DNA of 64,000 nt from Brachyspira hampsonii 30446 (lineage in GTDB: Bacteria; Spirochaetota; Brachyspiria; Brachyspirales; Brachyspiraceae): positions 530,438 to 594,437 of the forward strand of contig NZ_JH994110.1 in the NCBI RefSeq assembly GCF_000316195.1. Direction: 5' to 3'. The position numbers and the translations under genes were made by a program. Numbering within the stretch: the first letter of the stretch is position 1; every line of letters begins with the position of its first letter. Positions 9,387 through 33,755 of the stretch are shown in pieces. A model generated the notes under the pieces. The model saw only the letters and a program-made list of their open reading frames with translations. It ran no database searches and was not told the origin of the DNA.

Positions 9387-9773
9387 TTATTTTTTTATTT
9401 TAACACCCGGACAAGCTCTTTTGAATTTTCCTGCTATTAAATTACCATTTTTATCCATATATTCTTTCCAATATGGAAAAGTAGAACATTGATTAGGTTT
9501 GGCACTATTAATAGTACATCTATTATTTTCATCTAAAAAGGTACAAGGTTTATCTTCTGTTACTTTTATATAATAACCATATCCTTCTTCATATTCTAAA
9601 TATTTATTAATAAAAACTAACGGAGATATTTCTAATAATTTAGAAGCTCTTTTTATATCATCATCATTAAAAAATACATATCCTTTTTCACGGCAGCATA
9701 TACCGCATCCTGTACATGAAAATGTTAATATTGCATTTTTATTATTTTTGTTTAATTTATTTGATTTTTTCAT
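9387..9773 (-). CDS. YkgJ-type cysteine cluster protein
   Basis: A 128-residue cytoplasmic protein with the CxxCxxCC pattern (CTGCGICC, about residues 20-27) and further cysteines at CTFL, CTIN, QCSTF and ACPG. This is the Zn/Fe-chelating YkgJ (CxxCxxCC) family, whose role is unresolved. It follows the LysM protein gene by about 20 bp on the same strand, so the two are probably co-transcribed. Confidence 0.85.
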   Translation of the reverse strand: MKKSNKLNKNNKNAILTFSCTGCGICCREKGYVFFNDDDIKRASKLLEISPLVFINKYLEYEEGYGYYIKVTEDKPCTFLDENNRCTINSAKPNQCSTFPYWKEYMDKNGNLIAGKFKRACPGVKIKK

Positions 9774-9796: not shown

Positions 9797-12186
9797 TTAT
9801 TTTAATATAGAATTGGCTTGAGTTTTTATTGTATTAGCTAGATTTTGTTTACCCATTTTTAAGTACATTTCAGAAACTTTTATGTAATCATTATATAAGG
9901 CTCTTTTCTCAGAATCATTCATATCTTCAATTTTTTTTTTACCCCCAGAGGGGAGCCTAATATCTATATTAAAAACTATACTGTCAGGATTATTATTTAT
10001 AATATTTTGATTAAGCACCGCTATTGAAGGCCATCGTCTGCTGTCCCCAAGCTCGGAGGTGGCTATTGATGATAGTGTATCAGTCCACTTTGTTTTATAG
10101 GTATCTGTTTGGTATGCTAATGTATTATTATTTGCCTGATTATTATTAGCAGATGCATTAGTATTTGCAGCTGGTGGATTAGGCGGAGGTGTTGGAGGAG
10201 TAGGCGGAGTTATTTCAGGCTCTTTAGGAGGGGTAGGAGTTGTGTTATTAGTCTGCGGTCTTACTGCATTAGTTTGAGTATTTACTGTATTATTAGTCTG
10301 CGGTCTTACTGCATTAGTTTGAGTATTTACTGTATTATTAGTCTGTGGTCTTACTGCATTAGTTTGAGTATTGACTGCGTTATTAGTCTGTGGTCTTACT
10401 GTATTAGTTTGAGTATTTGCTGCGTTATTAGTCTGCGGTCTTACTGTATTAGTTTGAGTATTTGCTGCGTTATTAGTCTGTGGTCTTACTGCATTAGTTT
10501 GAGTATTGACTGCGTTATTAGTCTGCGGTCTTAATGTATTAGTTTTAGGTGTGTCAGAGTTATTAGTGATTGATATAATATTATTTGTTGCTAAATCATT
10601 TGTATTTAATGTATTATTATTTGTAACCTCTTCATAGAAGTTATCATCAATTTCATTATTTTTTCCTGAGAAGAATTGAATACCTAAGAATGATAAACCT
10701 AATATTATAATTATAATCCCAATTATAGGTACAATTTTATTTGATTTTTTATTATTTTCTATAGAATGCTCCGGAGCTGCATAAGGTTCTGCCGGTTTTT
10801 TTTCAATTTCAGGAAGAGAAGAGCTTTTTAATTCATCTTCTGTTTCTATAATTTTTATTTCTTTATCTTTTAATTCCTGAATTTTTTCATTGATTGTTTC
10901 TTTTAATTCATCTATTTTTGATGAAGAATAATCTTTGTAGCTTTCTACAGAGCTGTTTTCACTTATTGTAGGTGCATCTTTTATAGCAGAGTCAATTTCT
11001 TCCTGATTAAATTTAGATTTCTGAATATGCTCATCCTCAGTAGGTATAACAACAGGTCTTTTAAATATATCGCTTTTACTGTATGTTGCTTTTTCTTCTG
11101 CTTTAACACTATCAGCATTATTTTCTATTTTTTCAGGTTCATTAGTTTCGGCCTCTGTTTTCTCTTCTGCAATTTCATCAAGTTTTTTATCTTCTTCTGA
11201 TGATATTAATTCTTCTTTAATTTCTGTATTTTCTGCTTCTTCTTTTTCTTCTTTAGTATCAGAAATATCAGAATCTTTATTATCAGATATTTCATTATTT
11301 TCAATTTTTTCATTCTCTTCGGTTTTTTTATCCTCATCTTTGTTATTTTCAAGTGTTTCAAATGAGTAAACAGGAGAATTATTATCATGAACTACTGATG
11401 AAGATATATTTTCATTGCTTGATGCAGTATCCTCTTCATCTTTTTCATTTTTTATATTATGAGCTGCAAATACACTGCTTATAATAGGTTTAGATGTATT
11501 TATCTCTTCATTTTTATTAATATTATCTAAATTATCATCATCTACTATGGCTATACGCTTTTTTACGCTAACAGGTCTTGATACATTTTTAGATTTTGCT
11601 TTTATAGCCTCTTTAAGAAGAGTTATTGATTCTCTTTCTGTTTTATTTTCAGTATTTTCGGTTTTGATTGATTCTATTTTTCTAACAGGAGTTGAAGTTT
11701 TAAGAACTATTTTTCTTTCGGCAGTTTTTATTTCAGATGTTGCTTCTTTGATTATATCTTTAAAATCTTTTTTTTCATCATCATTATTTTTTTTAAGAAT
11801 AGAATCGGAAGCTTTTATTTCAGGCTTATTTTCTTTTATTTCTTCTGATTTTTCAGTTTCAGATATTTTTTTTTTCAGCTTTTTCAGCAGTTTTTTTTAG
11901 CTGCAGTTTTCTTTACAGTATCTTCTTTCTTTTCAGCTTTTTCAGCAGTTTTTTTAGCTACAGTTTTCTTTACGGTATCTTCCTTCTTTTCAGCTTTTTC
12001 AGCAGTTTTTTTGGCTACAGTTTTCTTTACAGTATCTTCCTTCTTTTCAGCTTTTTCAGCAGTTTTTTTGGCTGCAGTTTTCTTTACAGTATCTTCTTTC
12101 TTGTTAGAAGTCTTTTTAGCTGAGGTCTTTTTTACTTCCTTAACTTCTTCTTCTTTTTTGTTTGTTGTAGTTTTTCTTGTTGCCAT
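9797..12186 (-). CDS. Repeat-rich single-TM LysM-domain protein, frame broken at an A8 tract
   Basis: The gene starts at 12186 (MATRKTTTNKKEE). It encodes Lys/Ala-rich 19-residue repeats and stops at 11884, in the frame broken by eight A residues (11891-11898). The frame one base back is open without stop down to 9797, yet contains no start codon until a GTG at 10018, so it is the rest of the same gene. Joined, the product has about 796 residues. In order it has the Lys/Ala repeats, a long acidic segment, one transmembrane helix (about 10670-10740), 15-residue PQTNN-x-VNTQTN repeats (10247-10540), a proline-rich linker and a C-terminal LysM domain (about 9930-10095, W-x-DTLSSIA...GDSRRWPSIAVLNQ). 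The layout suggests a cytoplasmic basic domain tethered to a peptidoglycan-binding LysM. It starts 5 bp after the winged-helix gene. Confidence 0.8.
10247..10540 (-). repeat. 45-bp in-frame tandem repeat in the LysM gene
   Basis: About 6.5 copies of a 45-bp unit encode a 15-residue Asn/Thr/Gln repeat (PQTNN-A/T-VNTQTN-A/T-VR). Substitutions between units are mostly synonymous or conservative, so the encoded repeat is under selection as a spacer, probably spanning the periplasm. Copy number is likely to vary between strains. Confidence 0.9.
11884..11899 (-). other. Frame-switch window with A AAA AAC heptamer
   Basis: Read on the minus strand, the zero frame runs GCT AAA AAA AAC TGC TGA. The downstream frame opens immediately after a TAA at 11899-11897. 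A change to the -1 frame must therefore happen within these 16 bases, which are essentially the A8 tract. The heptamer A AAA AAC is in the register required for -1 slippage. Equivalent tracts in the other repeat units have seven A. A second long tract (A10, 11866-11875) lies just downstream. Confidence 0.75.
11895..12110 (-). repeat. 57-bp in-frame Lys/Ala-rich tandem repeat
   Basis: About 3.5 copies of a 19-residue unit (KKT-A/V-AKKTAEKAEKKEDTV) encode a highly basic, alanine-rich segment resembling the lysine-rich tails of bacterial histone H1-like proteins. It could bind nucleic acid or polyanions. Its A-tracts are the site of the frame break. Confidence 0.85.
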
Positions 12187-12190
12187 ATTT

Positions 12191-12931
12191 TCACTCTGTT
12201 ATATTTTGTTTTCTATTTATTAATATGTTTTTTATAGTATTCATTGTTTTCTCATCAAATATGTTTTCAGTTATATTTCCTCGCTTTAATGAATCTATAA
12301 GATATTTATTTAAATTTATATCTTTATTAAGGTTCTTTTCTTTAGCTATATAAATATAATTACACATAGATAGAATTATTCTAAGCCGATTTCCATCAGA
12401 AGAATATTTATCTATTAATTTCTGAGGTTCATCAATACCCAAACAACTTAAATTATAACAAACTTTAAAGAAAAGTTTATTAGTAACCTGTTTAATTTGA
12501 GTATCTTTTTTAACTTTTTTATTTATAGTATAGAGTATAGAAAAATCTCTAGCTTCAAAATTACATACAGTAGCATAAAATTTTTCTTGATAAGGCATAA
12601 GATAATGATGACTTTTTGCCTTAGATTCTACTCTAGTAATAAATCCCTTTTCTTCCAAAACATCTAATGATTTAACTATAGTGGCATTTCCTCCTATACC
12701 TGCTTCATTTAATATTTGGGAATGAGTAGTTTTAGCTATACCAAGTTCATAATCATAATTAGCAACTAAAGTTCTATATACTTCTTTAGCTGATAATGGT
12801 AATTTCTTCCAAGTATTGTTTTCTGTTATAGATTTTGGAATAAAAGAACACATTGATGCTATTGATAAAAATGTGTCTTTATCTATTGTTTTTAATTGTG
12901 CTTTATTGATTATATCTAAAATGTTTTCCAA
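12191..12931 (-). CDS. Winged-helix DNA-binding protein
   Basis: A 246-residue protein. Residues about 45-110 (LSAKEVYRTLVANYDYE, then a helix-turn-helix stretch and VKSLDVLEEKGFITRV) fit a winged-helix domain like those of plasmid replication initiators and MarR/RepA-type regulators. The remainder is helical and unrecognised. It is the first gene of the operon with the LysM protein and may regulate it. The opposite flank is the long spacer before rrs. Confidence 0.7.
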   Translation of the reverse strand: MENILDIINKAQLKTIDKDTFLSIASMCSFIPKSITENNTWKKLPLSAKEVYRTLVANYDYELGIAKTTHSQILNEAGIGGNATIVKSLDVLEEKGFITRVESKAKSHHYLMPYQEKFYATVCNFEARDFSILYTINKKVKKDTQIKQVTNKLFFKVCYNLSCLGIDEPQKLIDKYSSDGNRLRIILSMCNYIYIAKEKNLNKDINLNKYLIDSLKRGNITENIFDEKTMNTIKNILINRKQNITE

Positions 12932-33147: not shown

Positions 33148-33462
33148 TTATATTTCTTCTTCTTCAAATTCTTTGACAATATAATTATTGAAATCATCTT
33201 TAGTGCAGAAATATGCTTCATAAAAAAAATTTTCTTCTAATGAATATATATCATGAAGTTCTTTATTTTTATAATCTTTAATTTCATTCATACATTTAGT
33301 ATCTATAGAAAAATCAAGTATAATATCTGTAATATCTTCTAATTCAGAACTTTCTCTAGGTATATCTTTAGGATTATAAACAACTATATATGACAGATAT
33401 TTTTTATCATCAAAAAATTTTAAATCTTTAAGTATATTAAATACAGATTCACCTTTTTTCAA
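33148..33462 (-). CDS. C-terminal piece of a split nuclease-like protein
   Basis: 104 residues if read from the TTG at 33462, which overlaps the stop of the upstream ORF. There is no ATG before about residue 57 and no separate Shine-Dalgarno. The N-terminal stretch (KKGESVFNILKDLKFFDDKKYLSYIVVYN) continues naturally from the end of the upstream ORF: adding one A to the AAAA run before the TGA would join them into about 200 residues. I therefore read it as the distal half of one gene, though translational coupling from the overlapping TTG is possible. Confidence 0.6.
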   Translation of the reverse strand: MKKGESVFNILKDLKFFDDKKYLSYIVVYNPKDIPRESSELEDITDIILDFSIDTKCMNEIKDYKNKELHDIYSLEENFFYEAYFCTKDDFNNYIVKEFEEEEI

Positions 33463-33755
33463 TATATTTTACCTTTAACAGCACCGCTTTTAAACTCTAT
33501 TAAATATATTTTTTTATTTTCAAATTTATATACGGCATCTACAGATTTTACTTGCTGGCTATATTTATTATATGAACAATATGCATCTCTTAAGTTTTCG
33601 CATTTTATTACTAGAGAATTTGATTCTGTCATATACTGATTATTTGCTTCTGAGTAAGAAGATTCTTTTAATGTTTTTATTAAATCATATTCTCTATTTT
33701 TAAATAAAATAGGTACTATATAATCATGAATTTCTTTTAAAACTTTATCTTTCAT
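33459..33755 (-). CDS. PD-(D/E)XK nuclease-like protein, N-terminal part
   Basis: 98 residues. Asp73 (SVDAVY) and Glu87-x-Lys89 (YLIEFKSG), on adjacent predicted strands with a turn between, reproduce the D...ExK core of PD-(D/E)XK nucleases. The ATG overlaps the stop of the ATPase gene by 4 bp (ATGA), implying coupled translation. The domain is too short to be complete and its likely continuation is the next ORF in another frame. Nuclease activity is inferred from motif only. Confidence 0.62.
   Translation of the reverse strand: MKDKVLKEIHDYIVPILFKNREYDLIKTLKESSYSEANNQYMTESNSLVIKCENLRDAYCSYNKYSQQVKSVDAVYKFENKKIYLIEFKSGAVKGKIY

Follow-up and report, generated by a model that had tools for sequence, protein, structure and literature searches.

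A gene for a predicted membrane protein in Brachyspira hampsonii 30446, divided between frames at two neighbouring A tracts and continuous in most relatives

Within the 64,000-nucleotide stretch of the Brachyspira hampsonii 30446 genome that we analysed (the window), a gene on the reverse strand begins with an ATG-initiated ORF and is carried on by a second, much longer open frame; the two parts, their repeats and their A tracts are listed in Table 1. Only 4 bases separate the ATG from the end of an upstream gene (12191-12931), and a gene of the CxxCxxCC family (9387-9773) begins 23 bases past the stop; with gaps this short the three genes likely form an operon. A literature search found no paper on this gene in Brachyspira.

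Table 1. Features of the split gene, with positions in the window.
Feature	Position	Strand	Basis
5′ ORF, Lys/Ala-rich repeat segment, 100 aa, TGA end	11884-12186	-	ORF translation
57-bp tandem repeat, 4.1 copies, A tract in every unit	11868-12102	-	tandem repeat search
A8 tract, where the zero frame departs from the gene's frame	11891-11898	-	sister genomes have A7 at the same place
Third-frame stretch, KKTAEKAEKKNI	11862-11897	-	repeat continuation, stop at 11861-11859
A10 tract, second off-frame length difference	11866-11875	-	sister genomes have A9
3′ open frame, 699 aa: acidic region, membrane segment, TN-rich linker, LysM-like domain	9797-11896	-	
Single predicted transmembrane segment IVPIIGIIIIILGLSFLGIQFF, kept across the genus; limits approximate	10670-10737	-	alignment, sequence reading
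45-bp tandem repeat, 6.7 copies, NTQTNAVRPQTNN-type linker	10244-10545	-	tandem repeat search
LysM-like domain	9947-10111	-	genus profile against PDB
Second A10 tract of the gene, in frame, same length in G004; internal control	9931-9940	-	

The 5′ ORF is made up mostly of a 19-residue Lys/Ala-rich repeat, which gave a weak match, under the family cut-off, to the Pfam HC2 family of histone-H1-like nucleoprotein. In the genus alignment the parts of the protein follow one another as Lys/Ala repeat, acidic region with conserved blocks, hydrophobic segment preceded by lysine, TN-rich linker and C-terminal domain. The copy number of the 45-bp array that encodes the linker differs between species. 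The gene had been labelled LysM in a preliminary description made from the sequence of the window, a label that has support from profile comparison: in the PDB, a genus profile of the C-terminal domain matched the Kbp LysM domain (E value 1.3e-4) and, at 1.6e-4, a LysM tail protein, but a Pfam search gave no LysM match in the gene. A structure model of the C-terminal domain was left aside because of its low mean pLDDT (65) and the lack of a meaningful PDB match. In the predicted topology the basic end of the protein would be cytoplasmic and the LysM-like end periplasmic.

We could reproduce the two-frame split as first described, with the same limits for both parts (the zero frame closes with a TGA at 11886-11884, and the second frame is preceded by a TAA at 11899-11897), as well as the claim that the 3′ frame lacks an early start: the ORF scan found no ATG, GTG or TTG upstream of a GTG at 10018, and on this ground we rejected a separate start for the 3′ part. 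The zero-frame codons at the A8 tract are GCT AAA AAA AAC TGC TGA, with A_AAA_AAC in register for a -1 shift and the stop one codon past the tract, and sibling repeat units carry A7 at this place, again as first described. Between the A8 and A10 tracts it is the third frame that carries the repeat on, its translation (Table 1) continuing the 19-residue repeat of the sibling units exactly and matching the sister species too before it runs into a stop, whereas the -1 frame of the same stretch would read LLKKLKKK and matches no relative. This continuation in the third frame points to two separate one-base length changes, not to one switch of frame.

A nucleotide search covered 26 Brachyspira genomes, and the gene was present in every well-covered one. 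The 5′ region of the gene is covered in 23 of them, and 20 of these 23 have it as a continuous ORF, 535-891 stop-free codons long and starting with MATKK or MATRK (in one of the 20, G015, the open frame runs into an N stretch). Plain in-frame tracts in other strains had been named as a result that would refute the first description, and at the level of species such tracts are what we find. In the two nearest relatives, G005 and G004, the gene has a single frame and the corresponding tracts are A7 and A9; the repeat arrays of the two differ in their number of units. It is also broken in two further genomes, at tracts other than those changed here: by four one-base losses in A-runs in G008, which we take to be B. 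intermedia PWS/A, and by several changes in G010, presumably B. pilosicoli P43/6/78. Since the PWS/A sequence comes from 454 alone, at 14x (PMC3163572), the breaks in G008 are probably homopolymer miscalls. A genome-contig scan returned five relatives, all of them Brachyspira and none of the same species, and a family profile search found the gene in three genomes from two further genera of the family as well, the matched part being unbroken.

The layout of the first tract invites comparison with dnaX (A_AAA_AAG; PMC5009743), in which an A-rich heptamer likewise lies in register and one frame stops shortly after the site. Programmed -1 ribosomal frameshifting at A AAA AAC, giving two products as in dnaX, would account for the heptamer in register, for the stop one codon on and for a -1 frame open over 699 codons. 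We nevertheless consider it extremely improbable. The site is not conserved, 20 of 23 genomes having one frame and the two nearest needing no shift. It has AAC in place of the AAG of dnaX, and A_AAA_AAC is a weak slip site in bacteria (PMC5009743). Neither an upstream nor a downstream stimulator was found: on reading the sequence we saw no Shine-Dalgarno-like motif just upstream, and shuffled sequences fold almost as well as the downstream RNA (z of -1.5 and -1.65). The heptamer itself is commonplace, occurring in frame as A_AAA_AAC 50 times in 121,732 codons of this genome. Moreover, and again unlike dnaX, between the tracts the relatives agree with the third frame, not with the -1 frame. We accordingly rejected a programmed -1 shift on conservation, heptamer frequency, missing stimulators and the third-frame evidence, and with it the earlier proposal of a single programmed slip at the only site where a switch could occur, given that the relatives have one frame, that two tracts have changed and that the heptamer is so frequent. 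A AAA AAC would instead be a by-product of an A tract that precedes the ACTGCT of the repeat, and not an evolved shift site.

The background of tract changes was gauged in a 444-kb sample of this genome; about 320 kb of the sample (~135 kb + 188 kb) could be aligned to G004. Many of the off-frame indel pairs in the pairwise DNA alignment turned out to be compensating artefacts of alignment, and these were discounted. Over these 320 kb or so, almost all coding A/T tracts of at least 7 have the same length in this genome and in G004, and for coding A8 tracts the length equalled that in the sister in 20 of 21 and 50 of 53 cases in the two aligned regions. One-base splits at A/T tracts, leaving this gene aside, were seen at least once here (C3:800322) and three times in G004 over the same length, and their presence in both genomes indicates that such breaks are a regular, low-rate feature of both assemblies. 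The gene itself is rich in tracts. It has 4.2 A/T tracts of at least 7 per kb, compared to 1.65 in coding sequence, and holds two of the window's four A/T tracts of at least 9, one of which (9931-9940) is in frame and stable; this makes it a likely victim of slips. A7C is enriched in the window (38 occurrences, about 14 in shuffles).

Homopolymer error alone, in the sequencing or assembly of the repeat array, with the gene in frame in the living organism, is a serious candidate whose chance we put somewhat below even. The gene has two tandem arrays and the window's longest A tracts, and the assembly has N runs 362-944 bases long, such as a scaffolded draft with gaps would have, although these may have another origin. 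In addition, the one-base A-run losses in G008 affect this same gene in what is probably a 454-only genome, and for B. pilosicoli the published genomes come with counts of 4, 223 and 50 suspected frameshifts or deletions (PMC3532143). This reading has to contend with a genome completeness of 99.99% and with the close agreement of tract lengths elsewhere with G004; together with the gene's other A10 tract, which is in frame, that agreement indicates that gross homopolymer miscalling is not general. The likeness to 454 homopolymer artefacts of the PWS/A kind (PMC3163572) extends to several one-base A-run differences in this same gene in G008, but most tracts of the present genome agree with the sister genome.

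Substitutions in the 3′ part bear on whether the gene is being lost. The dN/dS of this part is 0.31 at a dS of 0.11 in comparison with G005 and 0.16-0.24 in other comparisons, and derived codon changes number 17 synonymous and 15 non-synonymous here, against 13 and 13 on the intact G005 branch. We see in these values no sign of extra relaxation or of longer decay of the 3′ part, in a test that is weak, as even a wholly unconstrained branch would be expected to gain only about two new stops (0.045 x 46 substitutions). True decay, that is, loss of the gene in progress in this species, would fit the two off-frame changes and a 3′ part without a usable start, but we hold it to be unlikely, in that 2.1 kb shows no further stop or off-frame change where 46 substitutions, had the whole branch been free of constraint, would be expected to bring about two stops, and the synonymous/non-synonymous balance resembles that of the intact sister. 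One would not expect a gene kept throughout the genus and not relaxed to be dead, and there is thus some scope for rescue or for reversible switching.

Rescue would mean that the allele is real and that RNA polymerase slippage at the tracts yields mixed mRNA and, from it, some full-length protein. One-A transcriptional insertions dominate at A/T runs in E. coli and Buchnera and rise exponentially with run length (PMC5574713), and frame-broken genes of Blochmannia are thought to be rescued by transcriptional slippage at poly(A) tracts (PMC3017870). The off-frame changes here sit in A8 and A10, tracts in the range of about 8-9 or more that is taken for slippage rescue, a backward slip at the first of them would lead into the 3′ open frame, and the 699 codons of that frame are unrelaxed and open without other lesions. 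As in the poly(A) genes of Blochmannia and Buchnera (PMC3017870; PMC5574713), an otherwise intact gene of an AT-rich genome has its off-frame change within an A tract and shows no accelerated evolution; unlike in these, two tracts have changed, the organism is not an endosymbiont, the sister species are in frame and the case is known from DNA alone. On the other hand, A8 is short for efficient slippage, the study of E. coli and Buchnera saw no restored frame (PMC5574713), and a rescued protein would include a stretch that is not homologous to the relatives. Low-level rescue by transcriptional slippage may thus be possible, by analogy with these systems, but we doubt that a partly rescued allele is what we are looking at.

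Phase variation, with tract lengths varying among cells and a full-length anchored protein alternating with a short free basic peptide, would suit a gene whose predicted product is a membrane/periplasmic protein and whose 5′ part holds A8 and A10, and three species have this gene off frame, the tracts concerned differing between them. Yet the gene is in frame in 20 of 23 species, sister species mostly agree in the length of their coding A8 tracts (20/21 and 50/53, as above), and each of the three off-frame genomes has several changes, unlike what one switching tract would give. Moreover, a literature search on Brachyspira, phase variation and slipped-strand mispairing gave no report of tract-based switching in the genus. 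We regard phase variation as possible but unsupported, and improbable as the explanation of the split. That the two A tracts form a working switch in this species which, by slippage on DNA or in transcription, sets the ratio of a free basic histone-H1-like peptide to an anchored, full-length protein with the LysM-like domain, strikes us as very unlikely.

Taken together, the sequence comparisons indicate that this is very probably a gene normally read in one frame, which appears here either as a recent off-frame allele or with homopolymer errors from sequencing or assembly. This reading would explain why the third frame carries the repeat on between the tracts, why 20 of 23 genomes have one ORF and why G005 and G004 have A7 and A9. 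It is in line with comparable one-base tract splits elsewhere (at C3:800322 and the three in G004), with the tract density of the gene (4.2 against 1.65 per kb), with independent A-run breaks of the same gene in G008 and G010 and with the absence of accelerated change (17/15 here, 13/13 on the sister branch). It accommodates less readily the closeness of the two changes, unexpected from rare independent errors, and the fact that a gene kept in the genus and unrelaxed should not be dead. Of the four explanations offered at the outset (programmed slippage, phase variation, true decay and homopolymer error), the last two gain weight from the relatives, and programmed slippage is left unsupported.

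The sequence of events under an off-frame allele or error would be as follows. A genus-conserved, normally single-frame gene for a predicted membrane protein has, at the end of its 5′ array, two adjacent A tracts that are each one base off the relatives; the frame would be lost at the first tract and lost again at the second. The cause would be slippage in either case, presumably strand slippage in replication if the allele is recent and real, or homopolymer miscalling if it is not.

For AT-rich genomes generally, the case advises caution: where such heptamers abound and sister genomes read through, finding an A-rich heptamer at the point of a frame break says little for frameshifting. The case also draws attention to a family of Brachyspiraceae proteins, conserved but unstudied, whose basic repeat would lie inside the cell and whose LysM-like domain is predicted to lie outside the membrane, and the A tracts of the gene offer a natural place to measure how far tract slippage is tolerated in such genomes.

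Tract-associated differences were also noted at other loci. In the window, a gene of ~203 aa (33172-33755, reverse strand) has one frame in G005 and is split here near 33468 by one base in a short A-run. Outside it, at about C3:640592, a one-base loss adjoining A7 cuts short, close to the 3′ end, an ORF that has 820 aa in G004. The opposite is seen in the METIGQILKNAR gene (C3:825234-826625), which we take to be RodZ-like by its start: its frame is open over 464 codons here and split at an A tract in G004. Another 464-codon frame (C3:729425-730816, reverse strand), presumably TilS-like (AAAYSGGIDSQ near its start), has 11 A/T tracts of at least 7, eight of them A8 or T8. No other ORF of the 444-kb sample holds as many, and this one is open in a single frame. 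Across the whole window, A/T tracts of at least 9 are depleted, with 6 9-mer matches compared to about 22 in shuffles.
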